DNA of 64,000 nt from Purpureocillium takamizusanense (lineage: Eukaryota; Ascomycota; Sordariomycetes; Hypocreales; Ophiocordycipitaceae): contig NC_063076.1 in NCBI RefSeq assembly GCF_022605165.1, positions 558,001-622,000 of the forward strand, given 5' to 3'. Under the pieces are notes generated by a model. That model was not told the origin of the DNA. It saw only the letters and a list, made by a program, of their open reading frames with translations, and ran no database searches. The number at the start of each line of letters is the position of its first letter. Position 1 is the first letter of the stretch. Both the position numbers and the translations under genes were made by a program. This document shows, piece after piece, positions 24,057 to 44,388 of this stretch.

Positions 24057-25920
24057 TCACGGCATCACCAGGCCGATGCCGCTGAGGTTCTCCTCGTCCA
24101 GCTGGTTGCGCTTGTCGACGCCGCCGGCGATGGGATTCATTTGGTAGTTGAAGAGGTAGTAGTGCAGCTGGCCGTCGCCGCCGCCAAACTTTTGCTGCTC
24201 GAGGAAGAGCGCGTTGTCCATGAGGGTGAGGGCGTTGAAGACGTCGAAGCGGGCCTTCTTGGCCAGGATGAGAGCGTCGTGCATGAGGCCGTTGAGGCGC
24301 GTCTTGAGGGCGGCCTTGTCGAAGGGCTGGGCGACGCCCGTCTCGGAGGCGTAGTAGAAGAGGTAGGCGACGCGCAGGACGTCGTGTTTGGGGTTGTTGA
24401 TGATGGACGACTCGACGCAGAAGAAGGAGAAGAAGTCGGTGATTTTCTTGTCCACGTCCTGTCGCAGGTGATCAGTACTGTGAAATATGAGGCCAACAAG
24501 TGAGGGCGAGTGTGATGCGGCGCGCTTACCTCGACCACGTAGGACCAGATGACCTGCTCCACGTTGGGCTTGGGGATGAACCAGTGCAGCGCCTCCTCCT
24601 CGGTGAAGTCGGGTGCCATGTCGAACCGCCCGAGGTAGCGCTTCATCAGCGCCAGCACGGCGGGGATGTCCTTGGGCGTCATGGCGCGCAGGCCCCTCGT
24701 GGAGGTGCTGTCGGGCAGCGCGTACTTGCGGATCTGGTACTGGGGCTTGCTGCCGGCGGGCAGGGGGCTGAAGCCGCACTCGTTGAGCTTCTGCCAGTTG
24801 ATGGAGCGGTGGAAGTAGCGGCACGTGCTGACAGGCTTGGGCAGGACGATGCCGGCCGTGAAGAGGCCCTGCCAGACGCCCTCGGTGTTGCTGATGCGCG
24901 TCACCTCCTTGATGAGCACGGGCGCGAGGCGCTTGCCGCGCAGCTTCTTGTGGATGCACAGGAAGTTGACCTCGGAGCACATGATGTGCTTGTCGCGCAC
25001 GCGCAGGCGGCAGGGGATGGCGGAGATGAAGGCGACGAGCTTGCGCGACTGCGAGGCCCGCACGCCGACGTGGTACTTGCGATTCCAGCCGGGTGCCATC
25101 ATGGCCCTGGAGACGGTGAATGATTTAGCATATGAACAGGAAAGCTGCGAAGGAGGGACCTCTGGGGGGGGTCTTACCATCGCAAAATCTCGGGCGAATA
25201 GTTGAAGCGGAACATGGCCTCGTCGTCCTCGACGTAGTGCCCGTTGAGCAGCTCGTACACCTCCTTGATCTCCTCGTCGCTGGTCAGGTCGACCGTCACC
25301 CACTCGAAGCCCGGGACGAGAGCCGCGGGCTCCTTGGACACCTCGTCGATGGTCTGGATCTTGAGGGGGCCCTCCTCGGCTACCTTTTCGTTGTCGCCGA
25401 AGCGCGGGACGGGCTGCGTCTGCCAAAACTTGTACGCACCCATGTCCTTGACGTTCTTGCCAGCGGCGGCCAGCCCCGTCATGATGTCCTGCAGGTTCAT
25501 CTTCTTGAGCATCTCGGCCGCCTGCTCGGGCGAAGGGTCCGCGCCACCGCTGCCCGAGGCCTGCGACAGCTCCTGGCGGAGGCTTGGGTTCAGCGCGAGC
25601 AGCTCCTTCATCTGCTGTGGCGTGAGGCCGCCAATGGCCTTTTTGATCTCCGACTCGTGATCGGCGGCGGTGGTGCCGCCGCTGGACTTGTGGCCCGTGA
25701 GCAGCTCCTTGGCCTTCTTGCGCTTCGACTTCTTCTTCTTGCTTGACGAGGACGAAGACCCCGCGGCGGCGGCTGCGGCGCCTTCGGCCGTCGTCGTGGC
25801 ACCGGCTGGCGCATCGTCGTCGCCGTCTTCGTCGGACTCCATCTCGGCCTGCTTGCCCTTGAGCTTGGCGTCGGTCTCGTCGACGACGGGCTCCACGGGC
25901 TTGGATTCCTCGGGCGGCAT
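24057..25920 (-). CDS. NMT1: Glycylpeptide N-tetradecanoyltransferase (N-myristoyltransferase)
   Basis: Exons in transcript order: 25920-25178, 25106-24530, 24458-24057, giving 573 residues. The enzyme moves myristate from myristoyl-CoA to the N-terminal glycine of proteins and is essential in fungi. The N-terminal 100 residues are acidic then Ser/Lys-rich, with a polybasic ribosome-targeting stretch ([10 protein letters not shown], 61-70). Conserved NMT blocks follow: [67 protein letters not shown], and the C-terminal [13 protein letters not shown] and [10 protein letters not shown]. The catalytic C-terminal carboxylate region is intact. The start is the ATG of MPPEES; the upstream in-frame extension has no ATG. 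Confidence 0.96.
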
Positions 25921-26390
25921 GGTTGCAGCGGTGGCGGCGGCGGGCGTGGATGGTGCTGGAGGGGAATACACTGGCGCGGTCCGGGACGAAGACGTGCCAC
26001 AAGGTGGAAAGGTTGGTCACCTTGCTTGGTGGGATGGTGGGGTCAACGGCTCGTGTGCCTGGCGCTGCGGGGGCTATCGAGCTGCCCCGCAACCACGGAG
26101 TCCTGAATCCCGATGATGGCGGCCAGGCGGACATCATTATTCCATGGAAATGACTGCCGGAAAACCTATATAGGACACGTGTGCAAAACTCCATAGCTCA
26201 GAAAGTAAATTAAAGTTAACTTTGTCTATTAGTGTGTAGCACGTGGATTGGATGCCTCTGCTTCGGTCTTTCCGCTACAGAATACTCAGTTCAATCAGTC
26301 CTCACAACAGAGTCTAGCAGTAGCTAATGCCATCATCGTCCGAAACTCCGAGGATAGGGCCGCGCCGTCGGTCTATGATATCCATCGATT
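25921..26390. other. Intergenic region between two minus-strand genes
   Basis: This is the NMT1 promoter on the right of that gene and the 3' flank of the ABHD12-like gene. An ACACGTG site lies near 26175. No coding sequence is seen. Confidence 0.5.
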
Positions 26391-27848: not shown

Positions 27849-28934
27849 GGTTGTAGCCGGCGGAGCCAGCCGGGGCTCCGTTACGGTTGCTCGGTGGAGA
27901 GATGAAGATGCAGCGCGGTTCGCGCAGCAGCAGTGCTGCAGCCTGCACTACCTTGTTCTTCGTACTACCTGTCGATGGTCTCCCTTGTTCGTCGACGGCA
28001 GGATGTGAGTCAATTCACTCGCTCGGACTGGTGTTGGCAGGAGACTGGCGCATGATGTCAAAGTGCGGGCTGTGGCGGCAATTGATGGATTTGAAGCATA
28101 TCAGCTGCTCCTAACTAGGCCATGGCGCGAGTGACGAAGGTTATCTCAGGAGGTAGGAGTCGGGAGGAACTGGGGTGCCTGCCCTGAGGCCGACTCGTAG
28201 TGGAGATGAGATCTGGAGGGAGGAGTGTGGGCGGGGGCCAGTGCGGCCAGTGCGCTGCGGCAACGGTCCCTCCGCTCTGGCCCAGGGAGCCCCGGGCCAG
28301 GCCGCTGGGCCGCTATATTTAATCCTTGGAGCCCATATCACTTCCAGAGAGAGGTAGGCTCTGGCAAATCGAGCTACATAACGTACGTAGGTGAGTACTA
28401 AGTTAAGTACTGTAGGTATAATTCGTTCTGTGTACATGTAGTTATGTCAACCCTTGACGCTACTTGCTCTTGTATGCTTGTCCAAGAAGTCAAACGAGAT
28501 GTGACTACTTCGTACCGATTCGTTGGCGCAACGCGCCCGCGAGTTCCCAACGGCTAACACGATCGTAGCCCACATCCTACATGTACAAGTGCGCACGCTT
28601 CACGTAAAGGAGCCCCCCTATATCCTACTCATACGAACAAGAGTTCCATTTGTCACGCCATTGCAGTGAACATATAAGGCGCAATCTCGAATGTGACATC
28701 AATCCTGGCGGTAATGGCAGTCGAGGTTAGCACTCGCAGGCATAGCACGGAATAGGCGTCACGGGACGCACGAACTGAAGCAGGGTTGAGGCCGGCAGCA
28801 AATTCAGCTACATCTAACGACATAGTCTCGTAGGCATCCAAGGTGTCTGTTAAAAGAGCGTCAAAAAGTAGTCGAAAACTATAGGCACCCTACCAGATTG
28901 TCTTGTAGTCGACGCCGGCGCCCGTTGCATCGGT
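27849..28934. other. Intergenic region at the left edge of the RiPP cluster
   Basis: No gene is supported in about 1.1 kb. TACTTCGTAC (one base short of the 11-mer) lies at 28506-28515. Base composition becomes AT-richer from about 28300, marking the change from core genome to the cluster. A cryptic coding-like unit at 28893-28934 directly follows the stop of the precursor and is listed separately. Confidence 0.55.
28893..28934 (-). other. Cryptic in-frame core-like unit after the precursor stop codon
   Basis: After the TAG of the precursor the same frame stays open for 14 codons and then meets a second TAG at 28890-28892. It encodes GAGVDYKTIW, which matches the first unit of the precursor (GADIDYKKLW) in position, length and the Tyr-x3-Trp spacing. 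Even the bases before it (GCCTAG) match the intron acceptor before the first unit. It is either a relic of a duplicated exon start or an alternative terminal exon: exon 1 ends in phase 0, so splicing to this CCTAG would be in frame. Confidence 0.5.
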
Positions 28935-29446
28935 CTAGGCGATCCAATTTGATGGAGCATAGACCCTACCATCCGTTCCCGCCGGAGCCTTTCGCTCCAG
29001 CTCACCTCTCTTGGTACCCCAGTTTGCTGGGGCATAAAGCCCAGTATCCGGGCCGACCTCTTTATCAGCCTTTCGCTCCAGCTCATCTCTTTTAGTACCC
29101 CAGTTTGCGGGAGCGTAGAGCCCAGTGTCCGTGCCGGCCTCTTTAGCAGCCTTTCGCTCTAGCTCACCTCTCTTGGTGCCCCAGTTTGCCGGGGCGTAAA
29201 GTCCAGTATCGGTGCCAGCCTCTTTGGGACCCCTCCGCCACAGTTTCTTATAGTCGATATCGGCGCCGCTCTCTCCCTAGGCAAGATGTCAGCATCCATC
29301 AGGTAGCCCACAGACAGATACGGAGATGCCGCAAGACAATGACTGGTAAAACAGGCTCTGGATCACGGCCAACTCACCGGCTCTGCCACGGGGGCAGCTA
29401 CGGCAACGGTAGCAACGGCCGCCAAGGCCAAAACAGAAGCCTTCAT
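28935..29446 (-). CDS. RiPP precursor peptide with Kex2-spaced repeats (dikaritin/UstA-like)
   Basis: Exons 29446-29378 and 29276-28935 give 136 residues. Exon 1 encodes a signal peptide (residues 1-18) and short pro-segment. Exon 2 encodes a unit with YKKLW (32-36) closed by Arg-Arg. Three units each contain GLYAPANWGTKR (Tyr50, Tyr77, Tyr104), and a last unit carries YAPSNW (129-134) without a following KR. Units 2 and 3 are exactly 27 residues (81 bp). KR at 58-59, 85-86 and 112-113 fits Kex2 cleavage in the Golgi. Codons for the core differ between copies while the peptide does not change, which indicates selection on the peptide. Signal peptide, KR-spaced repeats and an adjacent UstYa gene define fungal dikaritin-type RiPP precursors. 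The family assignment is inference; the repeats are direct observation. Confidence 0.9.
28938..29231 (-). repeat. Imperfect tandem repeat of the RiPP core units
   Basis: Four in-frame units lie at 29169-29231 (first, 21 codons), 29088-29168 and 29007-29087 (27 codons each) and 28938-29006 (last, 23 codons). They share the core Tyr-Ala-Pro-(Ala/Ser)-Asn-Trp and, in units 2-4, a spacer beginning (G/D)ELERKA. Copies differ mainly at silent positions within the core, so this is an old functional repeat rather than a recent slippage product. Confidence 0.92.
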
Positions 29447-30247
29447 TATGAGTAGTATGAAACGTTGGAACTGAGCGTTGAGTAAGGGGAGTTATGGATG
29501 TTAAGATTGATGTCCGAGGAACAGAGGTCTGGGGAGGGAAAAAGCATCACCTATATATACACATCAGGACTCTCGCTCGGTTTAACCATACGATTTGCGG
29601 GATTTGCCCACGCAGACAGTATCCTTCCGGTCATGCTTGTGGAGACTTGGCACCACAATCATTGATGGTTGGATCGAATGTATTCTGCTTCATTCAATCA
29701 GATATTCACACTGTTGAGGTAGTGTTGACGCCAATGTCTAACAGCACTGCGATCGACGCTAGGATCTCCGCAAAGAGACCCAACATCTGTTGGTGAGTTC
29801 CGCTCTTGCATATTTGGTCAGACAGCGTTGCATGTTCTCCTTTTGCAGGAATCGCCGTGCAGAGACGACGGGAACTTCTGAGCAACAGAGCCTCGCACGC
29901 CATGCCGCGATACCAGACATATCGTGTCCTCCACCTTCCTCTTATGCCTTTGCGCTGCCGGGAAGCCGACTTTGGAGTGAGGCTAATGCTCCCGGCGCAG
30001 CCGTAAGCCCAACCTGCATGTGGTGACGCTACGCATGTTGAGTTGCGGGGAGGAACTGGTGACGAGCCACGGACCGATGTAACCGAACGTGAAGTTAGTC
30101 CATGTCCTCGACCCTACCTTTGCCTCCTTTTCGCCCAGTTCATCTGGCTTTTCAAAACCTTCTTGTTTCCATACTAAATCATCCTGATACACCTTGCCCT
30201 GCAAACATTGAAGTTTCAGGCGTCGGTCCTTGCACCGCGAATGCACT
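29447..30247. promoter_or_regulatory. Shared divergent promoter of the precursor and the UstYa-like gene
   Basis: These 801 bases separate the two divergently transcribed cluster genes, so one region can drive both. A TATATATA box at 29552-29559 lies about 105 nt upstream of the precursor start and suits the minus-strand gene. No coding sequence is supported here. No cluster-specific regulator gene is seen nearby. Confidence 0.6.
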
Positions 30248-31383
30248 ATGGAACACGACCGAGAAAGTGAAGATGATGAACGGTGGGATGAAGATGCGAA
30301 ACTGGTCTCATCACGGCAATGGGAGCGGCGGTCAAACACGAAAGTGTCGCCAACATCTATGTACTGGGCATCATTCTCATGGACCCTAAACGTCGTTATG
30401 GCGCTCATCAGTGTTTCTTTCTGGTGGCGTGCACGACATGAAACGTGCCCATACATGTGGGACAGCAGGAACAAACCTGGCGCATACTGTGGGTGAACTT
30501 CCGACGACGCGGCGTGGAGGCGCAATCAATGCTTATCCATGATGCGATGCAGCACCGGCCAACGATGCCGTTGAATATATACCCAAGATATTTCATAACC
30601 GCTTCGACGGCGATATCTCCCCATTTCAAGGCTGGCCGACGGACGAGTCGGACGCCCTGTGGGTTGACTTATATGACAGTCAGTGCACATCTCGTTGCGA
30701 AGACAACGTTGCTTGACGGCTGACAGACAACGATCTTGCGCGAATAGAGGGCTCCAGCGTGCGGATAGGTAAAGAGTCACATGACCAACTGCTAAACAAG
30801 ACGACCCAGATCCCTTTGGCCGGACACGAAGAAGACTACTTCCTAGGAATAGATGTCTTCCATCAGCTCCATTGCTTGGTACGTGCTACGGATCCTCAAG
30901 TAGAACCCATACGCTTACATGCCGCAGAACGTGATCCGAAAGGCATTCTATCCGCGCCGCTATAACATCACCATGGTGAAGCCGGACGGCACCATAGACT
31001 TTCTCGAATGGATGCATGTGGGCAAGTAAACCAATCTCAAGAGGAACACTGTGCTTTTGCTTGTCTTCTAACGTCGCACAAAAGACCATTGCATCGAGTC
31101 CCTCCGGCAGTCTGTCATGTGCCACTCGGACATTAGCACCGTCCCGTTCCGTTGGTCGGAAACGTCCCAGGCTCTGAAGCCCCGACTGGACAGCGTGCAC
31201 GTGTGTCGCAATTTCACAAAGATTCGGGAATGGGCGCTCGAGCGACACGTTGACGTCGGCAACATGCGGGCGCAGGTGGAGCACGGACAAGTTGTCGACT
31301 ACAGCTCGACAGCGCCGGATCTATATAAGCTGGCGGAGCAGAAGATTCCGTATGATTGGAATAAGACGGTAGACGATATGTGA
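30248..31383 (+). CDS. UstYa-like oxidase/cyclase (DUF3328)
   Basis: Exons 30248-30488, 30553-30678, 30727-30878, 30928-31021 and 31085-31383 give 303 residues. UstYa-family proteins are copper-dependent membrane oxidases that cyclise ribosomal peptides such as ustiloxin and asperipin. An acidic cytosolic N-terminus is followed by one membrane helix (about 38-60). The family blocks come next: YSPANDAVEY (80-89), FDGDISPFQGWP, the first HxxHC (HQLHC, 168-172), the second HxxHC (HVDHC, 203-207) and IESLRQSVMCHSDIS. The intron after EWMHV has a GC donor (GGCAAGT), and only this splice restores the second HxxHC. It diverges from the precursor gene, so a role in cross-linking the core is the natural inference. 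Confidence 0.92.
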
Positions 31384-31715
31384 GAGGCGTGTGGACTACA
31401 GTAGACATTCGCTTTCAAACATCGGAACATCCCAATCTGTTTTCTTTCTCAGCCGTGAGTAATGAAGTACAGTATGCTCTTGTCAGTGCTCACATTGAAG
31501 TGTAGGAGATCCTGATGAAGGGAAGAGCGGGTTTCCTACCAACTGTAGTATTCTTTGCAGGATTCAATATAGCCTATCCGCGAATGCAACGCTGTGTCAA
31601 TGTCTGCCCCCGTTACCGAAAATGACCACTTGAGGAGTAAACGACCTGCGACTGAATTGAAGTCATCTTGACCACTCACTAACTCGAACCAGCGAGTTGG
31701 GTGAAGTGGTCAAAG
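31384..31715. other. Convergent intergenic spacer
   Basis: It lies between the 3' ends of the UstYa-like gene and the P450 gene. No feature is seen beyond presumed terminators. Confidence 0.5.
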
Positions 31716-33604
31716 CTAGCCACCCCTTCTCCGGATCTTGACCGGGACCTTGCCAGCTACAGCCATAGTGCCCAGACCGAAACCACGCATATCCATCTGG
31801 AGAGAACGTACGTCCGTAAGGATCTCAATATCAAAATAAGTAACCATAACCGCTGCCGTGAATATAATATCACGCTTGGCAAAATGACGACCCGGACACA
31901 TCCTAGGTCCTCCACCATAGGGGAACCATATCCCCTGAACGTCTTTAATAGCGTAAGAGGCTTTTCCCACAGGACATTGACCCGGCATTCCGTAGCCACC
32001 AGAAACGGATTTTGTTTGAGACAGATGAGTAGGCTTAAGTGGTCCACTAATGGGATTTCCGTCGTACTGCAGGAAGCGTTCGGCCCAAAAGGTATCGAGA
32101 GGATGCTCATTGTTCTCGCCAGTATTCCATACTTCGGAGTCCATATGAGCAACCGTCGAACTCATCACCAGCAACTTTCTGGACGGCACTGCCCAATCTT
32201 GGATACGCAAGTCATCGAACTGCGGGATGCGCGTGATCAGCATATGCACGCGCATGCGAAGGACCTCGGCGTAAATCGACTGGAGAACGGGATTCGCCAG
32301 CAACAAGTCGATATCAAACCCACTGCCAGTAGCAGTTGTGCATTTTCCCACCTCCTCCCTCACCCTTCTGAGAAGGGCGGCATCGTTGAAGATTTCAAGG
32401 ACGGTCCAGAGGCCAGCAACTACAGAATTGCGTGTCGACCTATGTGATGATCAGTCTCCTGGGTACACACACAAGTTCCGTATGATTACTCACGACCAGA
32501 TTACACCAAAGTCCTCTGATGCCAAGGCATCATGGTCCATGCCATCCATCTGGGAGAGGACATTGTCTCTGTCGCGAAAGATTCTGCTCCCCCAGAAAGG
32601 GTCATCCCCGTTCTCATCAAGAGCTGACTCGTCAAAGTTCTGACGTGCGTAATTTTGCCAATCCTTAACCGCAGCGAGTAGCCTGTCTCGCCTCGCATAC
32701 AACCACGGTGCGAGAATACGAGGCATGCCTCTGAATAGCACGTCGATTCCACGATCGAGCTTCCATAGTTCCTCGAGAAAGTCCGGGTTGCGCTGCAATA
32801 GATACGGCCCACAGAGAGCGTTAGTGTTTGCAGCTGAGACATCAACTTCGAAAATCTGCGTTAAATCGGGTAGATGTGTCCAATCTGTATTAAATGGCAG
32901 ATCGTGAAGACGTTTTGTGAGCTCTAGCTCGTACCGGAACCAGAAGGCTCTCATGCCAGCGCCAGAGAGGAATCGAGTTATAGGCCCAAATGAAAGGTAG
33001 TCGATCCGATTGCGGGGCTCGACATGAGTGCCAGGGCGAGGTTTGCAGCGATAACCCGAATTGTCTCGGTCATACAACTTGAGGGCTTTCTCAGGCATGC
33101 CAAAAACCCTTCCAAGGACGAACTTATGTAAGAAGATCTGACTGCATATCGACGAGTTCCTAAAGACGTCTCGAATATTCTCGGGCCCCTGGGCGAGGTA
33201 TAGCTCCGTATTCAACATATTGACGCGGATGGGATGTGTCTGCCGAAATATACTAACGCTCTAGTCAGCTCATGCCACGTTAAAATTGAAAGTAGACAAA
33301 ACCCATGGCACGTATACCTTGATCGTAGAATCCACCGAGATGGGTCGCGGCAGGTCATGTATGACAAGACCGTGGCCACGGGGCCGACCACGGGCACCAT
33401 GTATGGCCACACGGGCGGCGACTTCCGTGAAGTGTTTTGTTTTGGCAGTGTCTTGTAGGTCCTCCATGTTACTAAACCATTCGCTAAAACAAGGCAGAGT
33501 AAAAGAAATAATAAATGTGCCCGTGTTATTCCAGATTCAACGAGCATCAATATCAGTCTGCCTGTGAGTGGCGAGGCAATCTCAGGGTCATCATCAGACA
33601 CCAT
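31716..33604 (-). CDS. Cytochrome P450 monooxygenase of the RiPP cluster
   Basis: Exons in transcript order: 33604-33318, 33252-32494, 32439-31716, giving 589 residues. An N-terminal membrane anchor is present (AHLLFLLLCLVLANGLV, residues about 29-45). The ExxR of helix K is EVLR (407-410). The haem-binding loop is FPYGGGPRMCPG with the ligand Cys530. Splicing restores the block HPIRVNMLNTELYLAQGPENIRDVF, which is typical of CYP7/CYP8-like fungal P450s often found in secondary-metabolite clusters. A second ATG at residue 20 would give 570 residues and place the anchor nearer the start; either is possible. It is likely ER-bound and acts on the peptide or its cyclised form; the reaction is unknown. 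Confidence 0.9.
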
Positions 33605-34862
33605 AACTGTTAAGTATCAAAGAAAAGCTCCAAAGACTTCACCTAAAGACGTTAGAAAGTTACGTGAATGAGAGCTTCTGGCTTCAACCCAGTCCCCCAA
33701 CTCTTTATGTGCTTCCGATTTGCTCTCTCGGACGAAAACAGGGTTTTTAATCCGAATGTATGACAATCTAATAGTGGGCAGCCGATATCGAGCCGACCAG
33801 TCGTCGGTACTCCATCAGTGATGGAACAAACCACGTGTCATTCCTGTCCTGCACCCTGCTCATGCTTTGTGAGCCTATTAGGGAATATACCGCCCTTGCT
33901 GCGACTCATCGTCCGCCAATTCGTATCCGATCAACTTATGACAATCCATGCTGACAGGAATTTCTTATTAGAGACAATGCCGTAGTGGGTCGTCATGCCC
34001 GTCATCGTGATGCCCGGGCTCTGTGACAAAAAGAAACAGGGAAAGTAGCGACTCATATGCTGGAAGATTCCTGAGACGGCGTACAGTAGCGGCGACCTGA
34101 CTTAGCCACCATCTTGGAAGTAACATTGAAAGCGGGGTATACGGGATGGCAAGTGAGGGAAGATGCACGGACTCAGACTCTGCAGTGGCTTCGTCGCACT
34201 CTTCATCACATTGGTCCCGCGAACAACAAACAGCGGTGTGGGTTTCGTAAAGAAATGCCTTGATGCAATCACAGTCATTTATACTTACGTAAGTTGTAAG
34301 CAATGATAAGAATTGAGTCGGACGGTGATATCATGAGACAGTAAACCACGTAACGGCCCTGATAGGCGCCTTTCCGTCTAGTTGTTTCACTGCTGTTTTA
34401 CTTCTTCCTTTTAGTGTGTACGTTGCAAACAAGAGTGTGAAGAGGATGTGCCAAGTCTATATTGTAGTACGTGGATTATCCCGGATTACTGGAACTTCTA
34501 CTGGGCACAATAGTCAAAAGGCACATTAAACCGGTTCTGATGGGGGACACTCGACGTCCGCTACCCGGTTGGATCGCATCTGCGACAAAGTAAAAAAAAA
34601 AACAAGGAATTCCTCAATGATCTGTAGCGTTCTGGTGTAACGTTGTCCAGCCCAGTCTCACTCTCTCCTGTCCCAGGGATGAGTGCCTCGCCGATCTTCA
34701 GAACGGCCAAACAGTACGTAGCAGTGCCTTAGGTACAAACTCTACAGACACGATATATAGCCGCCAACGTGCCAGCGGGGAAGAAAATTACCTGCACGCC
34801 TAAGGCCTTTGACCAATCCTCTTACCCTGTGTTTGAGTGGCTACAAAACAGGATCTGAAAGC
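33605..34862. promoter_or_regulatory. Shared divergent promoter of the P450 and the methyltransferase
   Basis: This is a 1.26 kb non-coding region between the divergent P450 (minus) and O-methyltransferase (plus) genes. TATATA at 34754-34759 lies about 105 nt before the methyltransferase start. An A-run sits at about 34592-34601. No gene is supported. The layout (two divergent pairs, converging in the middle) makes the cluster symmetrical. Confidence 0.55.
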
Positions 34863-36143
34863 ATGGCAACCTCCAGCGTCAGCAGGGCTGATATTGGCGA
34901 CGCTCTGAGCAAGGCTAGGACCTTGACAGCTCTACTTGAAGCGTACGATGGAACCTCGGCGAGCCACCTGTCGCTGTTAAAACATACCAACCACATTCGT
35001 GCTGCGTTGGAAGAGCCGTACGACATAGGTATCCGGTGGCTAGACAACTTCAGCGCCGCTGCAGCTCTATACGTTCTCATCCAAATCAAAGCCTTTGAGA
35101 ATATTCCAGAGGAGGCAAGCGTAACCGCCACGGAACTTGTGGGCAAATGTAAAGTCGACGTCTCGGTCATCACTAGAGCTACGCGCGTCCTCGTGGTGAA
35201 CGGCATCTTCGACGAGGTCGGCTCTGATGAATATAGCCATAATGAGCTCTCGCGGGCATTTGCACCCACCCGGTTGGGAGGCTTCGTCTGCTTGCTAGGA
35301 GACTTCATGGGGGTATGGAGTGCATTCCCCAACTACGTCAAGAGCCACAAGCCCGAGGATTTATACGACACCAAGAAGAGTCCGTTCGCTTATTCCAGGG
35401 GCTACGAGCGCAAGTCGTGCTACGAGGTACTCAACTTGGATCCTGAACGGCGCATGCAATTCAACGTCGCGATGCAATATTTAAACAAAGACTTTCCAGT
35501 CTTAGACATGTTTCCTTTTAGGGAGTTGGAGGACTTTGTTAGGAAAGAACCTGACCGGCCGTTCATTGTGGATGTTGGCGGGGGCCGAGGCCAAGCCCTG
35601 GTCGAGATAAGAAAACATTGCGGGGGTTCCTTTGGGGGAAAGCTCATCTTGCAGGATCTACCCATCGTAATCAACACTTTACGAGCAGAAGATGTTCCCG
35701 GGATCGAGCTGATGGCCTACGACATATTCACACCGCAACCAGTCAAGAGTAAGCTTCCGCTGCATGCAGTGCATACATACTTTGTCTGGAACTGCTGAAG
35801 CTAATCGGTGTCCATGGAAGATGCTCATGTATACTTATTACGTCGCCTTCTTCATGACTTCTACGATCCCTCTGCCATACGAATCTTGGAAAACAACGTA
35901 TCCTCAATGGGGCCCGACTCTCGACTCATTGTTTGCGAAACGTTAGTACGCGATCGCGTTACGGTTGGCGGGTCAACGACATCGTACTGGCTGGACTTTG
36001 GCGTCCTAGGTTTCGGTGGAAAGGCGCGATCGCTAGGCGACTTCAAAGAAATATTTGCTCAAGTTGGCTTGGAACTAGTCACCATCCACACATCGAGTGG
36101 TAGCCAAGTCGTCATGTTGGAGACTCGGCTTAGGTCCATGTAA
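34863..36143 (+). CDS. SAM-dependent O-methyltransferase (plant-type/COMT fold)
   Basis: Exons 34863-35748 and 35821-36143 give 402 residues. The N-terminal half is a helical dimerisation domain (LDNFSAAAALYVLIQIKAFE; a winged-helix segment with VITRATRVLVVNGIFDE). The SAM-binding motif I is VDVGGGRG (236-243), followed by LILQDLP and ELMAYDIF. The spliced RRLLHDFYD carries the catalytic His seen in this family. Length and order match fungal O-methyltransferases of secondary metabolism. In this cluster it may methylate a phenolic Tyr or a hydroxyl made by the P450; that role is inferred from position. Just right of it the decayed zone begins, so it is the likely cluster edge. Confidence 0.92.
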
Positions 36144-36249
36144 CTCTACAAATCTCACATACAGCGCCGAAATAAACACCGATAAATGGGTCTTTCACGT
36201 CACATTGTTGAGCTACGACATGACATGCTGTAGGATGTTTCGGGCAGTT

Positions 36250-36905
36250 GCGCGACAAGACATCTTGTTTAATGAAGTCCCACGCGACAACAACGGCCGA
36301 ATGCCAATATTTGCCTTCTTGTTGACCACCTTGATGCCATACAATGTGGCCTTCGTGGCGACGCCGTAGGTGGAAGAGCCAATGGTGCCGGCACAGTGCG
36401 TGTCGTGACCATCATCGTCAATGACAGAGCCGTTGACAAAGCCCTTGATTTGACTGGCGCGGCCATCGAGATCCTGGTCCGGTTCATTGGTGATTTTCCC
36501 TTTGGTACTGTATTTTGGCCTGCACTCGACACCGTTGTGCAGCCTATATTTGTGCTTTGCTTACAGGATGGGTCTCATCAACACCAGTGTAGGGGATGTA
36601 CATGCAGACGCCGTTACCGGCGGACTCATGATAGACGTAGTTGGTGGAACCAGCTGTGCGGTGAAGCCACGGAAGAGATCTTGGTAGTGGTGGAGGATAT
36701 CACCGGAACTGATGCATTCCAAGGCCTCTTGCACAGCGGAACAAGAGCTGCCTGGCTTAAATTTGACAATAAAACTGTCACTGTTGCCACGAGCGGTAAT
36801 CTCTCTTTCTTTCTGGCGGAGGTAGAGGGGGGCAGGCTCGGCACGCTCAGCGACGGGATTGGCAAGGGCCAGAGGCAATAAAGCGAAAAGGGTATTATAA
36901 AGCAT
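36250..36905 (-). pseudogene. Subtilisin (proteinase K-like, S8) pseudogene
   Basis: A secreted subtilase is recognisable but broken. The signal peptide and the first part of the I9 propeptide (SDSFIVKFKPGSSC, FRGFTAQL) read in one frame. After a large internal deletion, the catalytic-domain start continues in another frame. In that frame the position of the active-site Asp (DTG in the family) reads PYTG, and the GHGTH motif reads GHDTH before CAGTIGSSTYGVA. The sequence then stops well before the Asn and Ser motifs. Deletion, frameshift and loss of active-site context make it non-functional. It sits beside the RiPP cluster, but the break makes a current processing role unlikely. Confidence 0.85.
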
Positions 36906-37361
36906 GGTGTGTGATGGGATTTGTACCTTTGGCTTGGGTCAATTGCGGATTGGCAAAGATAAATATCAGCTCCAAGTCAACCACGGGAACATTCTTGCTG
37001 GGTATCAGGCTTCTGTATAGTAAAACCGAGTGGACGCCTGTTGATTCTTGATGGCGGTCATGGTGACCCTGATGGGCAAGTCACGAGAGTCGATTAGGTG
37101 AAAGGGCGCAGCCAAGACGTTTGGCGGCGAGCATGTAATGTAATGGTCTGCTTCTACACATTCGAACATCGGGACTAGCACGTACGGTGGCCACAATGTA
37201 CAGTGGTCGTACTGAAGATACAGTGCAGCATCGGCACATACTGTCCAGAATGCAATTGCTTCACAAGGCTTATGGGTTCCATTCGCATGACTACTTAATC
37301 ACCTGCTACACTAGTTGCCTCGCCCTGATCGGCTTGATCAAAAGCATAAGGTATAGCCAAT
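36906..37361. other. Short gap between two pseudogenes
   Basis: No coding region is recognisable; composition is moderately AT-rich. Confidence 0.4.
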
Positions 37362-38076
37362 CTACGGACTTCTTTGTAGGAAGCAGGTGGCGTGTCCAGT
37401 CACAGTGTAAATGTATAGATATAATGAGAAATCTGTTGTTTGTTGATGGGACAATGTCCATATGTCTCGACCGAGTCCGTTCGCGACTCCTCCAGCCACA
37501 CCGAGGGCAGTGGCCGGGATCTGAAGAGTGGTAGTGATCAACGCGAACCAGTCGTCAAGGCCCACTGGCAGAGTTTGAAAGTACACCCTGGATATAAACC
37601 GCTGGACTATTGCCGCAATTGATAGTGTAAGAAAGACAACTGCGACGATAGTGAATTGTCCGCCGCGGTCACGGCTCGTACGACCGCAAATTGTCGAAGT
37701 ACTGTTTTGCACGGCTACTGGATATTAGAAAAGTCTCCTGCTTTACAGAGTTATACTTGCATCGTAATTCCATCAATTTGCAGCTTCCGGCCAAGCAGCT
37801 CGAGGGAGCTGCCCCGCCTTGCGAAGGGATCAATCCGCAGAAACATCCTAGGTCATTCCCTGCGCAAGCAGTGGATCCTGAACCCGAGAAAAACTCGTGT
37901 TGAAAGGGTTAACGGCTGTCTGAAGATGAGAGTTCGGAAGCCTCCTACGGCGCATGGGGGGACGGCCTCGAAAGCGGTGAGTCCAGGGTGCTCAGGCTGG
38001 CCGATAGCCAGCGCTAATCCACTGAGAAGCACGCCGCCCAGAAGGCATGGCCAGTGTCGGTTTGGGACTGGCATTA
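37362..38076 (-). pseudogene. CFEM/PTH11-like integral membrane receptor relic
   Basis: The 5' part (from 38076) encodes a signal peptide and the start of a CFEM-like segment (FEAVPPCA). The expected eight-Cys pattern is interrupted by stops and frame changes. The 3' part (37362-37712) encodes the first membrane helices of the fungal rhodopsin-like domain (GGQFTIVAVVFLTLSIAAIV, FISRVYFQTLPVGLDDWFAL, and NGLGRDIWTLSHQQTTDFSL). The frame ends before the remaining four or five helices. The family are surface receptors sensing host or nutrient cues in plant- and insect-associated fungi. Truncation and frame breaks support a pseudogene. Confidence 0.72.
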
Positions 38077-38598
38077 TTTGCCGAGCTGAGTGATTCTGGC
38101 ACTGATTCTGGTAGGAGGGAGCTTGGGGACTCGCTGATAGCAATAATGCGAGACACGTTCGCCGACCTTTGAAAAACGTCAAATTATATACTGCCGACGC
38201 GCCTGACCATGTACTGCATTTTTCTGAGGATGAATCTATTCCTGGAAACGCCGGAATAGTTCTCGTGTCCTTAAGCAACGCAAGCCATGCCAACCTAACA
38301 CTGCCAAGATCAGGCCAGTAAATAACACACTCGTACGATTTCTAGCGGTGATGGAAATGACGAGTCGGTGTACTAAGTGTTATCGCTCTGCAACCAGCAT
38401 GTAGCATCCTCGTGACTTTCTGTGTCTCGCTTCGGGTCGTAAATCTCTCAGCGCTGCTTACTGGATATTGCTGACCTGGAATACTCGCTTCCAATAAGCG
38501 CACGGTGTCTATCATGATGGAAGGTGGCACTATATCTGGACATTCTGCAATTGTGTGAGTAGCCGGCCGGAACATCGCTACCTTCTATGTCAGGCTAT

Positions 38599-38884
38599 TT
38601 CTTGCGACGGACGTAACGGACGTTAACCCACCTATATTTTGGTCTAAAATATTCACTATCGGGCATCTATATCGCGGGCCCGGCGTAGGCTCGAGGGCTA
38701 CGCCTAAGTAAAGTCCCATTCCTCTTGAGATACCCGTAATTACTTTATTTCCTAGACGGAATTAAGGTTAGGGAGGTATCCCTATAGTCTCTCTATATAT
38801 AAATAGTCTTAGAGGAGATCCTATAAGATGGGCTCTTTAGCGCAATATACGTCTGTTAGTGCAAACAGTACGTTCTATATAACA
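38599..38884 (+). mobile_element. Solo-LTR-like dispersed repeat, copy 1
   Basis: This about 286-bp element is homologous, in inverted orientation, to 60960-61228. Shared blocks in order are GACGGACGTxACGGAxGT, GATACCCGTAATT, AGGTATCCCTATAG, TCCTATAAGAT and AATATACGTCT. The other copy runs from TGTTGTGACGG to CATAACA, the TG...CA ends expected of a fungal LTR. No coding internal region adjoins it, so a solo LTR or a MITE-like element is the best reading. Differences between copies are largely transitions, consistent with RIP. Confidence 0.68.
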
Positions 38885-40234
38885 CTAATCTGGTCATGGC
38901 GCCGCTTTACTCAGCCGCCAAGCGGTATCGAGGGGATTATGACATTGTATGGCCGGCAGAAGGAAGACTGACATGCTCTAGATGTCCTGGCTGATGGTTC
39001 GCCGCCAAACACGGAGAGCTACGGTTCCCTCATCAATGGGGGCAACTGTGCCTACCCAGCAGAAGGGAACGTTTGTTCAGCTTCAAAATTCGCCCTGCTG
39101 CTCGGGCTCCAACTGAACCCCTCACCTAAGGTAGATCGTACGCAAGGATCAAGACCCGTTCCATACTCGCTCAGTTCTTGTAACCGTGATGCAGGCCACA
39201 ACAAAGACGCCACGGCCGCAAAGCTTATTTGTAGGGACCTCACAAGAGGTTCGCGCTGCCGCGCAAGATTGGGGTCGTATGATTAAGAGTTCACAAGCGG
39301 CTCACTGGCACTGCAGCTCATCTCACGCAACGACGTCCATAACGACCCGGCAATCGACGTGGAGTGGCAATGATTGTCCACGGAGCAGTCATTGGGACAT
39401 CTCACTCTTGTTGCTACATGATACCGTCGTGAAAGAGCAGCCAGCACCTTGTCACTATCTTTAGAAAGCCGCCCACATATGACCGTATCCTGGTTTAGGA
39501 CCCTATGGAAACGTCGCCGCAATATCGACCAAATGACAAACAGTGCCTCGCAGCGCCAGTACCTTCACTTCGAACCGAGCAATCGTCTCAATTAAATCTA
39601 TCGAGAGGTTCCCTTCATACAGTCCATAGTCATGAAGACGTTCCACGCACGCTTGCACGCCCAAGGGCATGACTGGATGACTTGGAGCAAGCCTTTCGGC
39701 CAAACTCGCGGAGCTTGCCTTACTGATCAAATGAGCCCGGAAAGGCCTACGCCCAATCTAACACGGTTATACTATGCGCTACGTGTCATCAAGCACCATC
39801 ACTGTTGAGGTTCAGGGTGTTGTGTCACCATAACTACGTATGAGTGCCCATGCCTGCTGGGCTGCCGGCGACTGGACTCTGTGCTTCGTCGCACTGCATC
39901 ATTTTCTTCCTGGCGCCTGTAACACTTGAGCTAACACAGTCTGATTTGCCCCTGACCTGTGCCTCTTGACGTATTTGCTGGGATTTTGCCTGTCAGTCAT
40001 GGCGTCTTTGTGGTGTACATGCCGAATATAGAGGTGTTTTCTCTTTTTTAACCCATATCTGTATCGGAGGTCTGACGGCAGTCGGTTGCCAGTCTCCGGT
40101 CATTCACGCAGTGAGGGAGATAGCGTGCGAGCGGCGAGGGGCCTTTGTCGACTGACGGCCGCGAGAATCCAGACCTGACAGAGCACATGGCATATTGTAA
40201 GAATTTCCTGGGTGTAGAGGCGTAAGATTGCTTC

Positions 40235-40745
40235 AAATCACTATGTCTATGACGAGGGTAGTGAGATTTGAACTGGCCCAGGTTAGTAAATCAGCGAAGG
40301 AACTGATCAAGGACCTTCCATCTTTATGCTCGAATAAGCCGATCTTTGGCTTGCCATGCTCCAGCTCGAAGCCAAGGCTGTACTTTCTGCCTTCCACGAC
40401 GGAAGCAACCTTTTGCCCTTTGGCATATTCCCTAGCTTCGCTATCAATCGGACATTCGACGTATACTACTCCATCGTCTTAGTAGAAGCGTCCCAACTTA
40501 AATCTCTCACAACTCATCACCAACCTCTCCTTATTTTTTCCCGGTAAAGGGTCGGAACTGCCCAAAAAATTCTTCACTGGAATGTCTTGAGCTCCAGTGT
40601 CTGCTGGGTTGATGCAGAACTGGATACCAGTCTGTGCATTATCGTAGCAGAGCTCTTGTGGCGTTGCATTGAAGACATCGCCGACAGCCACGGCCATGGT
40701 GGCGTTTAACTCCTCCCTCTCGCAATAGAAACTACAAAGATTCAA
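40235..40745 (-). pseudogene. Unidentified protein-coding relic or small gene
   Basis: On the minus strand two frames read like real protein. The first (40745 down to about 40530) includes NATPQELCYDNAQTGIQFC. The second (about 40478 to 40235) includes EGRKYSLGFELEHGKPKIG. They are in the same frame but separated by a TAA near 40486, and no convincing intron removes it. I recognise no family. A relic is more likely than a live gene, but an unrecognised intron cannot be excluded. Confidence 0.35.
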
Positions 40746-42080
40746 TTTCTCTGTTGCCCAACTATCGACAGACCGTCGGCTAGGTTGACGTTAGTCTTCG
40801 AGAAAGTGAGCCATGCCGTAATTCAACGCGCACGGGGCGTGCTTTATCGACTCACATGGTTTAGGAGGTCGTAGGATGTTCGAGAATCCGTGAGACTGCA
40901 CTGAAAGAGTAATCTGATGCAGTGCTTTTGTACAAAGCACCCGTACCGCCCGGTAATGCGGGAAGTCAAGAGTTGTCTGACATTGTGCCCAATCGCTGAG
41001 ATGCGCACGTTTTACAATCCGGCTACTTTGATACCCCAAGCCGCAACATCATCGTGGGCTTATTAGCCAATGTGGATATAGCCCACAAATGGGCCGACAT
41101 GGCCCATTTCAGTGAACCCCTAGACAGCAATGATGTAATGCCCCAGTCCTTGCTCTAACAATAGACTTTCAGAAATCCGAAGAAGATATGATCCACTGCT
41201 ACGCCTGAGATCGGATGAGATAGCATGACAGAGTGGGCTTTCCGACCGGGGTCTCCCAGAAAACAGCTCGTGTCCATTTTTTTGCGACATTCTCAGCCAC
41301 AGATATGGCAGTAAAATGACGCGTTGGGCTGCACCTCAGTGAGTGTAAGTGTAATGACCAGCATGGTGCCAGCCAAACGAAGGCTTGCGAAACACCATCG
41401 TACGATAGACAATATAATGTCTGGTGCCATCACGACTTCTATAGGCCTCGGAACTGTTGACCGAAGTTGAGCTGCGCCTCGTTACCATTATAGCAGAATG
41501 ATAGCAGAATGACGAGGGACCCAAGGCCACACCTAGCAAGGTGAGAATGCTGTTACTAAAACGTCGACTCTGGGCAGCTTTCGAGATCTTCGACACAAGA
41601 TAAACTGGTATGCCAGGCGCTACCCAAGGTCGTAGAAATTTACTCTAAGACATCGAAGCCAAAAAGCTAAGACGCTAAGATATAGTAGCGCAGCTCGGCT
41701 ATCACAGAGAGCTCTAGCCAGTAAATCCATTAGAGATCTCTTTCAAAGGAATATATGAACCTTCGACTATAGTCGTACATCGCTTGCCCGCCTAACGTTT
41801 ATTATGTGTGTGGCGCGTCATTTACAGGCCCCCCGTCTCTGTATCTGCTTTGCCTACCGTCTGGTGTTCGACAAGTCAGCTTGCGTGGTGGTCGCCCTGG
41901 GTCTGTAGCAGACAAGTCCTAACTTATGCTTGAAAGATCCGCGGCCTCCTTAGTCGCAGGCTCACTAGGTACGCAGCCTCTGGCTCCTTTCAGTGGTCGC
42001 ATAGGACAGGGATAGCGGGCCAAAGACAAGACGGAACTAAAAGGCTTGGCAGCTAGGTGAGCTCATATTGAGGAACGAAG

Positions 42081-42240
42081 TTCCGAAAGGATTTCTATGG
42101 TTCCGAAAGGTCTTTTATGGTTCCGAAGGGATTTCTATGGTTCCGAAAGGTCTTCTATGGTTCCGAAAGGTCTTCTATGGTTCCGAAAGGATTTCTATAA
42201 TTCCGAAAGGTCTTCTATGGTTCCGAAAGGATTTCTATAG
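42081..42240 (+). repeat. 20-bp minisatellite, 8 copies
   Basis: Eight head-to-tail 20-bp units of the form TTCCGAAAGG(A/T)(T/C)TTCTATGG fill this interval exactly. Units alternate between an ATTTC and a TCTTC version, so a 40-bp higher-order period is visible. The open frame that runs through it is a by-product of the repeat. There are no spacers, so it is not a CRISPR-like array. Confidence 0.95.
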
Positions 42241-42868
42241 CCCGCTTTTATTATACTTTAGGTAGTTAAGAGAGTAGCTTTTAAAGCTTTATTACTATTA
42301 GCCTAACTCTTATCTTTATCTCATAATCTACCGGCGTTTTTCCTATTATTAGTACTATATTATTTCCCCGTTCCCCTTCCATAAAGGCCGGAGGACGGTG
42401 CTACTACTAATGCCTCTAAGCTAGCTTAATAGTTAGAGACCCATATTAATAGCAAGACCGCTAAGGACCCCGTTCCTTAAGGTTCGGTATGCAAGGCAGA
42501 CGGGCTGCCGTGCATTACCCTATGCTAAAGGATATGTGGGACCAACTATGTCTGGGTGGCTGGACTGTACGATGTCATAGTGTCATGGCGGGCCAGGCGG
42601 CAGGATGCTTCGCCTCGTTTGGCCAAGGATTGCAGGGGCAGTGGGCTGATATGCCCAGACTTCGACAGGCACTGATTGATAGGACAATAAGTTTAGCCAT
42701 CGTACGATGCTACGCGAGCAAGCAAACAACTTCTTGAGACACAGTGGTATAAAACAGCCTTGACCTGGAGTTGTCACCTGTGATGGCTTTGGTGCTTCTT
42801 TTGCATCGAGACTCAGCAGCGAATACTCAAGCAACGATACAAGCTTTCTCCTCCTACTACTCACGATC

Positions 42869-43067
42869 ATGCGCGTCGCTATGCTAGCTTCTATTATCGC
42901 CTCACTGGCCCTCGCAGGACCAGGTTTGGGTGAGTTCACTTGGACAAGCATTGTCGTTCAGTTCTGATTTCTCTCTCTTTCTAGCCTGCCGCAGTTCGTA
43001 TGACTGCCCAAAAGGAAAATCCTGTGACCAGCAGAGAGGGTCCCCAACATTTGGACAGTGTATATAG
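42869..43067 (+). CDS. Very small secreted cysteine-rich protein (effector-like)
   Basis: Exons 42869-42929 and 42985-43067 encode 47 residues. A signal peptide of about 21 residues (MRVAMLASIIASLALAGPGLA) is followed by a 26-residue mature part with four cysteines (22, 28, 34, 46) in the pattern C-x5-C-x5-C-x11-C. The intron has a GTGAG donor and a CTTTCTAG acceptor after a pyrimidine tract, and splicing joins the signal peptide directly to the Cys domain. The size, the Cys pattern and the isolated position in AT-rich DNA are typical of fungal secreted effectors or antimicrobial peptides. No homologue is recognised. Confidence 0.7.
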
Positions 43068-44388
43068 TATCTGTCGAATGACACATGTCGAGTCTCGGTG
43101 TGGGTTTTTCCCCGGATCACAGATCGGGTTTTCCCCACACTATAACGCAAATGCGGAGAATCATCCTTTAAACGTTTCATAAGCCCAAGAAGCGTATTGA
43201 AATAGAGATATGTCAAGCCTAATTGGGCGAATCAGGTTGAAATATGCGTATTGCGTCCGGCCTCCCAGCTTTATGGGGCAGGTGATCGAAGTCCTACGTG
43301 GGCATGTTTCGACAGTCTATTGTGGATATAATTTCTCACGCAGGACTTTCTTCGACGAGAACAGTAGTGTAAGATATATGCAGAGCGTGACCAGCCGAGG
43401 GAGCGCAACGGCTTGCTCGCGGGAAGCCATGTTCCCTCGAGGTACTTACCAGCTTCTCTGATACTACTGCGCAGCCCAGCGGAGACGTGCTAATGAATAT
43501 ATCCGTGTCGTAACGAGATTCACTGTAGGACCTTGGTCGTACCCGTAGATGGTATGCAAAAGAGCTTGCTGATGGCGCGCGCGGTAAGTATCGAATCGTT
43601 TTGCTTCTCGCATCTAGGCCTCGCACTCTGGAACTTGAGCCAGCGCCAATCGAACGGAGACCTTTAGGTAAGATTAGGATACGAATCAGGCAATTTCCTG
43701 GCAAACACGCCCGTCTAATGTGCAGCCGTCCGGTGAGTGACCTTTCTGACATGTGCGTCCGGCCACTGCTATTTATGGCAAGAGCCGTGCTCCGCGGTGG
43801 AGGCGGCAGCACGCAAGCATGGCGCATTCAGAACGAGCCCTCTGTGTTTCGAGCTGACATCAAAGTACTTATGGTGCGAGACCACGCGGCGTCATCTATA
43901 AAACACGAGACAGCAGGCTCGGATTCTCTTCTGCAGGCGCACAGCGGCCTGCCGCCTTTGGTCCAGCGGCTGTTATTGCAGGATACATCGCTGCCTGGAA
44001 TGAGGGTACACCGTGCCTGTTCGCACAAGTTGCAGCGCAGACGAACGGCCCCGCTGATCGAACAAGATCGACAGGAGCTTTGACATGACGGCTAGATTCT
44101 GGTCAGAGCATGGGTTCGTCACGAGCATCATATTTACCAAGTACGCCGTTTCGCTTCGGGTGCTTGATTTGTCTAGATAATCAAACTGGCACGAACTCCG
44201 CATCATCGAGCAGTGCCCTTGCGGACTTGAAGGCATGTCCGCTCCGCAGCGTCCTCCCGCAACAGCCATGTGGGGCGCAAGTAGATGCCGTTGGTCCTGT
44301 CGACTGTATATATAACTCTGGAGTCCGAAACGCTACCGTCCTCCTTGGGGAGCTGCTGCATCGGAACATGCAGTGTCACTTCCTCAAC
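43068..44388. other. Intergenic region
   Basis: No supported gene in 1.3 kb. Short overlapping frames on both strands lack domains. A TATATATAA stretch lies near 44308-44316, about 75 nt before the SDR start. Confidence 0.5.

Follow-up and report, generated by a model that had tools for sequence, protein, structure and literature searches.

Does a group of four genes in the fungus Purpureocillium takamizusanense encode a dikaritin, a type of ribosomally synthesised and post-translationally modified peptide (RiPP), and which of the four would serve that product? The window analysed here is a 64,000-nt stretch of DNA, positions 558001-622000 of contig C9; the whole genome of 35.57 Mb in 14 contigs was also searched (the strain PT3 assembly is described as 14 scaffolds and 35.6 Mb, PMC9302088). 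At 28935-36143 the window contains two divergent gene pairs: a repeat precursor with an oxidase of the UstYa (DUF3328) family, and a cytochrome P450 with an O-methyltransferase (OMT). The four genes and their motifs are present as described in the original prediction, and Pfam supports all three enzymes (ten proteins scanned, including models of these four genes). The precursor and the UstYa gene are likely to be a dikaritin-type RiPP unit, and the P450 and OMT are possible partners.

The precursor and its divergent UstYa gene

Dikaritins are defined by a Kex2-processed repeat protein (KEP) as precursor and by UstYa cyclisation (PMC10512285). The features of the candidate pair are as follows.

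29378-29446, minus strand: precursor exon 1, MKASVLALAAVATVAVAAPVAEP, with a signal-peptide-like N-terminus (judged by eye only)
29277-29377, minus strand: precursor intron, 101 nt, GTGAGT...CTAG, predicted from sequence
28935-29276, minus strand: precursor exon 2 including the stop, with a DYKKLW-RR unit, three YAPANWGT-KR repeats (27-residue period) and a terminal YAPSNWIA
28893-28934, minus strand: post-stop tail in the same frame, TDATGAGVDYKTIW (28934 to 28893 in reading direction), followed directly by another stop codon; presumed remnant unit
29447-30247, no strand: divergent promoter region of precursor and UstYa, from the gene models
30248-31383, plus strand: UstYa-family oxidase, 296 residues, exons 30248-30488, 30553-30678, 30748-30878, 30928-31021 and 31085-31383
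Candidate core-bearing peptide for UstYa: DTGLYAPANWGT

The precursor is composed of 136 residues encoded by two exons (29446-29378 and 29276-28935), with the translation MKASVLALAAVATVAVAAPVAEP-GESGADIDYKKLWRRGPKEAGTDTGLYAPANWGTKRGELERKAAKEAGTDTGLYAPANWGTKRDELERKADKEVGPDTGLYAPANWGTKRGELERKAPAGTDGRVYAPSNWIA. Among the introns listed, the chosen one has the best donor; its acceptor is CTAG, and it contains a branch-like CTGAC. The N-terminus, MKASVLALAAVATVAVAAP, has a charged start, then a hydrophobic stretch and AVA followed by AP. The stop codon is located at 28935-28937. In the original prediction the cluster began at 28893; this start includes the tail at 28893-28934, which is in frame after the stop. 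Splicing around the stop in frame was considered and rejected on reading the letters, as the good donor GTGAGC and an acceptor at the stop are out of phase. Folding of exon 2 RNA gives a z score of -1.81, with equally good folding in 2 of 100 shuffles.

YAPANW occupies residues 50-55, 77-82 and 104-109, and YAPSNW residues 129-134. The first three repeats each end in YAPANWGTKR, 27 residues apart, whereas the fourth, in register with them, ends as YAPSNWIA at the stop. The precursor thus has repeated cores separated by predicted Kex2 sites, as dikaritin precursors do. The array is also detected by Tandem Repeats Finder (score 361). The precursor does not read as a mating factor, as it has no Pfam family match at E<=0.01 and adjoins a UstYa gene, a neighbour that such factors normally lack. 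Only its own locus matched at E<=10 when the genome was searched for a second copy.

The UstYa gene lies about 0.8 kb from the precursor and is divergent from it. This arrangement is in line with an earlier survey, in which a DUF3328 gene occurred among the 15 genes closest to 1,758 (22%) of 7,878 KEP genes, with the directly adjacent position the commonest (PMC7329392). The gene has five exons and four introns, the fourth of the GC-AG type, and the final model agrees letter for letter with the deposited protein P0001 (JDV02_009009, Purpureocillium takamizusanense). It matches PF11807 with E=1.4e-49, scored on a model seven residues longer than the final one. Two HxxHC motifs are formed by HQLHC at residue 161 and HVDHC at residue 196; in an alignment of 30 sequences H161, H164, C165, H199 and C200 do not vary, and H196 is almost invariant. 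The structure model (mean pLDDT 82, pTM 0.69) contains an N-terminal helix at residues 35-64, and no relative of solved structure was found at E<=1. The dikaritin-type pair of the original prediction is supported, with a Kex2-repeat precursor that has a signal-like start and a divergent UstYa that has both HxxHC motifs.

UstYa has 58 homologues at E<=0.001. After its own protein the closest are from P. lilacinum (PCL_09936, 76%) and Tolypocladium paradoxum (63%), and the tree contains a 100/100 clade of (T. paradoxum, (this fungus, P. lilacinum)); the orthologues and the clade fit vertical inheritance. The T. paradoxum protein P0003 (TPAR_02205) carries additional residues immediately ahead of the second HxxHC, which may mean that its annotation overlooked the GC-AG intron seen in the present gene. 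No paper was found that names the UstYa locus tags or the guessed neighbours.

Core repeats and the proposed processing

The ten codons of YAPANWGTKR differ between repeats 1-3 by 5, 3 and 5 synonymous changes in the pairwise comparisons, and by no non-synonymous change. In the 17 codons preceding the core, the synonymous changes number 7, 2 and 3 in the same comparisons and the non-synonymous ones 11, 15 and 4. The stretch before the core of unit 1 is only partly comparable, and the fair contrast is between units 2 and 3, the best-matched pair, with 5 synonymous and 0 non-synonymous changes in the core block against 3 and 4 in the 17 codons before it. Although the numbers are small, this synonymous-only change suggests that both the core and its dibasic site are under selection, and hence that the gene is translated and used.

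The original prediction named YAPANW as the core. The motif is present, but its limits are probably too short, as the invariant block before KR in repeats 1-3 is YAPANWGT. Core and Kex2 site are directly adjacent in the precursors of ustiloxin and phomopsin. We therefore take YAPANWGT as the likely released C-terminus, so that the core probably ends there and not at YAPANW, whereas carboxypeptidase trimming could yield YAPANW as an alternative end. The core was considered unfamiliar in the original prediction, and YAPANW was found in none of 5.39 million open-access papers; its novelty is provisional, because subscription papers, supplements and MIBiG lay outside the search.

A second type of unit, DYKKLW followed by RR, is located near the N-terminus and is a possible further core. 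The tail after the stop carries the similar DYKTIW and matches the DYKKLW element at 23 of 30 nt; in 2,000 mononucleotide shuffles of the downstream 300 nt, the highest match was 20 of 30. The tail is presumed to be a lost terminal unit.

The pairing of repeat precursor and UstYa recurs in this genome. The 35 UstYa exon matches group into 17 ten-kb loci, and seven of these (L018, L019, L020, L022, L024, L026, which is the present locus, and L031) have a precursor with at least three dibasic-bounded repeats. The scan for at least three similar repeats of this kind gave no match in 85 mononucleotide shuffles of the 17 loci (841,580 nt). In the real window it also marked 24140-26197, which is arginine-rich, and 42041-42262, a 20-bp tandem repeat, so that the scan alone is non-specific.

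In the favoured reading, secretion, cutting, membrane anchoring, cross-linking and every P450 and OMT step are inferred. The signal peptide would take the precursor into the secretory pathway, where a Kex2-type protease would cleave after the KR (and RR) sites and the basic residues would then be trimmed. Cleavage would free segments with the ends YAPANWGT (three copies), YAPSNWIA at the C-terminus, where a further cut is unnecessary, and DYKKLW. UstYa, presumably anchored in the membrane, would then oxidise the core, most likely joining the Tyr side chain to another residue, with Trp as the likeliest partner. The adjacent P450 and OMT may act next, oxidising and O-methylating the product, or may have no part in this pathway.

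The P450 and OMT genes and the competing readings

31716-33604, minus strand: cytochrome P450, 589 residues, exons 33604-33318, 33252-32494 and 32439-31716; PF00067 E=1.1e-12; membership in the pathway putative
34863-36143, plus strand: OMT, 402 residues, exons 34863-35748 and 35821-36143; PF00891 E=3e-14 and PF08100 E=3.5e-6; membership in the pathway putative

Both genes, as predicted here, have complete reading frames. The P450 has only distant relatives among solved structures, namely bile-acid and cholesterol hydroxylase P450s including CYP7A1 and one that we take to be CYP8B1, and no close copy elsewhere in the genome. Of 8,000 candidates scored for the OMT, 391 proteins reached E<=0.001; the relatives given here come from the best 120 of these, some of which are unnamed. 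The first, P0059 (311 residues, 100% over 74%), is an unspliced form of the window's own OMT, which rules out that the gene is missing from the deposited proteins. The best named relatives among these 120 of 391 are from Cephalotrichum gorgonifer (60%) and Lomentospora prolificans (59%), with Ophiocordyceps sinensis of the same family at 56%; P. lilacinum is named once (53% over 66%) and Tolypocladium never. The absence of a close orthologue from either among these 120 argues against the OMT having travelled with UstYa in these species, although unannotated or unnamed genes would be missed. The Protein Data Bank (PDB) relatives of the OMT include ApiI, OxaC, LepI and MpaG', presumably enzymes of other fungal pathways.

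The 28-44 kb region has a GC content of 49-54%, compared with 58-64% in the 28 kb to its left and 53-64% on its right. Within 28001-44000 (about 50% GC) few complete genes are recognised, and the region looks like an accessory island. Pfam identifies an N-myristoyltransferase and an alpha/beta hydrolase to the left of the cluster and a short-chain dehydrogenase to its right. A broken piece of a subtilisin-like (S8) protease (36216-36938, minus strand) with a signal-like start and a stop between its two parts adjoins the OMT. Further along are a piece of a fungal rhodopsin domain (37365-37724, minus strand; PF20684 E=1.9e-8), which has a signal-peptide-like stretch upstream and resembles a PTH11-like receptor by eye, about eight apparently non-coding copies of the 20-bp tandem repeat GTTCCGAAAGGACTTCTATG (42079-42238), and a possible gene for a small secreted cysteine-rich peptide with one intron (about 42869-43069, plus strand, read by eye). 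No Zn-cluster match was found in the window (150 of 285 candidates scored).

The ketoacyl synthase and condensation-domain searches gave 29 and 42 matches in the genome, none of them on contig C9, which leaves no rival backbone of either kind in the vicinity. Tyrosinase (PF00264) and flavin monooxygenase (PF00743, the one flavin-enzyme family searched) have 10 and 25 genome matches at E<=0.001, again none on this contig, which bears out the statement of the original prediction that the cluster has neither.

The precursor and UstYa gene are probably a genuine, functional pair. Gene structure, repeats, dibasic sites, UstYa motifs, the synonymous-only core change and the UstYa orthologues are direct observations. 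Several points weigh against the dikaritin reading. The precursor gave 2,179 candidates among 5.8 billion proteins, none at E<=0.001, so that its conservation in P. lilacinum or Tolypocladium stays putative; short repeat genes are often unannotated, and the empty search does not mean absence elsewhere. Ten of the 17 UstYa loci, among them L021, which harbours the closest paralogue found (P0006), had no such repeat precursor in the uniform scan. Moreover, the last copy is less constrained: over 8 codons, unit 4 is separated from unit 3 by 5 non-synonymous and 2 synonymous changes. UstYa-family genes are also found in non-RiPP pathways (PMC12048977). The precursor might instead be a linear Kex2-processed signalling or cell-surface peptide, with UstYa acting on something else. 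This is improbable: 6,120 of 7,878 KEPs have no UstYa gene nearby (PMC7329392) and the copy number of four is low, but here the two genes have a promoter region in common, every repeat contains Tyr and the contig has no polyketide synthase (PKS) or non-ribosomal peptide synthetase (NRPS) match as another source of substrate. It is quite improbable that the precursor is decaying, the stop at 28935 having removed an ancestral terminal DYKTIW unit from a locus no longer used. The likeness of the tail to the N-terminal element, the relic protease nearby and the lack of the precursor in the protein set would agree with decay, whereas the synonymous-only core block of repeats 1-3, the intact and annotated UstYa and a last core that keeps the register of the other three and finishes precisely at the stop speak against it.

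For the second pair the outcome is different. The original prediction treated all four genes as one pathway, and as stated this is not supported: no close OMT orthologue from P. lilacinum or T. paradoxum is among the best 120 of 391, whereas UstYa has both, and a motif comparison of the two divergent promoters gave nothing above chance (their longest common word, an 11-mer, was matched or exceeded in 62 of 200 shuffles). A single pathway leading to an oxidised, O-methylated cyclic peptide is a plausible reading that falls somewhat short of an even chance. The four genes are contiguous within 7 kb of one lower-GC stretch, with 332 bp between the UstYa and P450 models, both P450 and OMT frames look complete, and C9 offers no ketoacyl synthase or condensation domain for them to serve. 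O-methyltransferases are described alongside UstY genes in the lichen Clan R1 clusters, although the same source states that they have never been reported in characterised dikaritin clusters (PMC12048977). The kinship of the OMT to enzymes that presumably serve other pathways also counts against one pathway. The odds are close to even that the P450 and OMT form a pair of their own, or a remnant of another pathway, lying beside the RiPP pair by accident; the patchy relatives of the OMT and the decayed protease next to it point this way, whereas the complete frames of both genes and the lack of a backbone gene of the two kinds searched do not.

Tyr...Trp precursors in the genome and known dikaritins

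The precursors at the other UstYa loci are listed below, with positions within each locus.

L019, 4520-5101, minus strand, contig C5: six YNNQAGWG-KR/KKR cores behind a signal-like start, with a UstYa gene on either side; carboxylesterase-family frame in the locus
L020, 5074-5529, plus strand, contig C14: four LYPVTWPS/G-K cores behind a signal-like start, with a UstYa gene on either side
L024, 3004-3351, minus strand, C9:16500-26400: three SYALRSGW(Y/T)Y(T/S)-KR cores, adjacent to a UstYa gene
L018, 2167-2889, minus strand: precursor without Trp, HQAYI-KR, 13 sites flagged
L022, 2212-2844, minus strand: precursor without Trp, LAYNKPASPE-RR, 8 sites
L031, 6391-6675, plus strand: precursor without Trp, GEATVF-KR, 3 sites
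L029, 3402-3755, minus strand: further precursor without Trp, IVIKAA(S/A)(Y/N)Y-KR, two sites

The signal-like start is in frame at L019 and L020 and in an upstream frame at L024 and L031; none was located for L018 and L022. In four of the seven precursors the repeat includes both Tyr and Trp (LYAPANWGT-KR, LYNNQAGWG-KR, LYPVTWPS-KK/KR and SYALRSGWYYT-KR). Tyr and Trp occur in 65.6% and 20.5% of UstYa-associated KEP repeats (PMC7329392), and about 13% would be expected to have both if the two were independent. Four of seven exceeds this expectation, but the sample is small and the pattern was noticed after looking. L019, L020 and L024 resemble the YAPANW locus in that Tyr and Trp are separated by 3-5 residues, a dibasic site follows soon after Trp in most copies and UstYa is next door (two genes in L019 and L020). 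They differ from it in their core letters and in their UstYa proteins, which group apart in the tree. This tree has 67 rows, 15 gene pieces of the genome (those below 110 residues dropped) and 52 of the 58 homologues (those below 180 residues dropped), and 22 of its 64 inner branches are open, with many of the genome's rows long or partial. A clade of Tyr...Trp UstYa proteins was not found, as the rows of L019, L020 and L024 fall away from P0001, and for this reason a common Tyr-Trp chemistry is a hypothesis only. At L027 (C1:1930691-1931406 and 1932630-1933263) a tyrosinase match and a UstYa gene are about 1.2 kb apart, a pairing known from the ustiloxin and phomopsin clusters.

A set of dikaritin-like peptides with a UstYa-made Tyr-Trp link across 3-5 residues (YPVTW, YAPANW, YNNQAGW and YALRSGW), produced by non-sister UstYa enzymes and here decorated by the P450 and OMT, is a tentative proposal that we consider unlikely in full. 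We know of no described dikaritin with a Tyr-Trp cross-link. No such case was found among the titles and abstracts on UstYa cross-linking that were examined, and no paper was found with YNNQAGW, YALRSGW, YPVTWPS or NNQAGWG. The four parallel Tyr...Trp precursors in one genome make it directly testable which residues UstYa enzymes can join, and the significance of the locus would be higher if the set proves to be one chemistry. The present pair is small, with one UstYa gene and one conserved core, and occurs in an insect pathogen with public RNA reads (SRR16888993, PMC9302088).

Only five dikaritins had been reported as of a 2022 review, which also counts victorin and epichloecyclin among them (PMC10512285). 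The ustiloxin B cluster is similar to this locus in its UstYa family, repeat precursor and P450. It contains UstYa and UstYb, a tyrosinase, two flavin monooxygenases, an N-methyltransferase and a pyridoxal phosphate (PLP) enzyme (PMC12048977), whereas contig C9 has no tyrosinase or PF00743 match. The asperipin-2a cluster likewise has a single UstYa gene (PMC7329392, PMC12048977). Its product matures through a reductase and a multidrug transporter (PMC12048977), whereas the neighbours here are a P450 and an OMT; the few window frames compared with Pfam showed neither a reductase nor such a transporter, no full gene-by-gene scan having been made. With ustiloxin, phomopsin and asperipin-2a in general, the locus has in common Kex2-bounded repeated cores, Tyr in the core, an adjacent UstYa/DUF3328 gene and two HxxHC motifs. 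The asperipin-2a core is FYYTGY. The present locus differs from these systems in its core, YAPANWGT, which has Trp at the far end.

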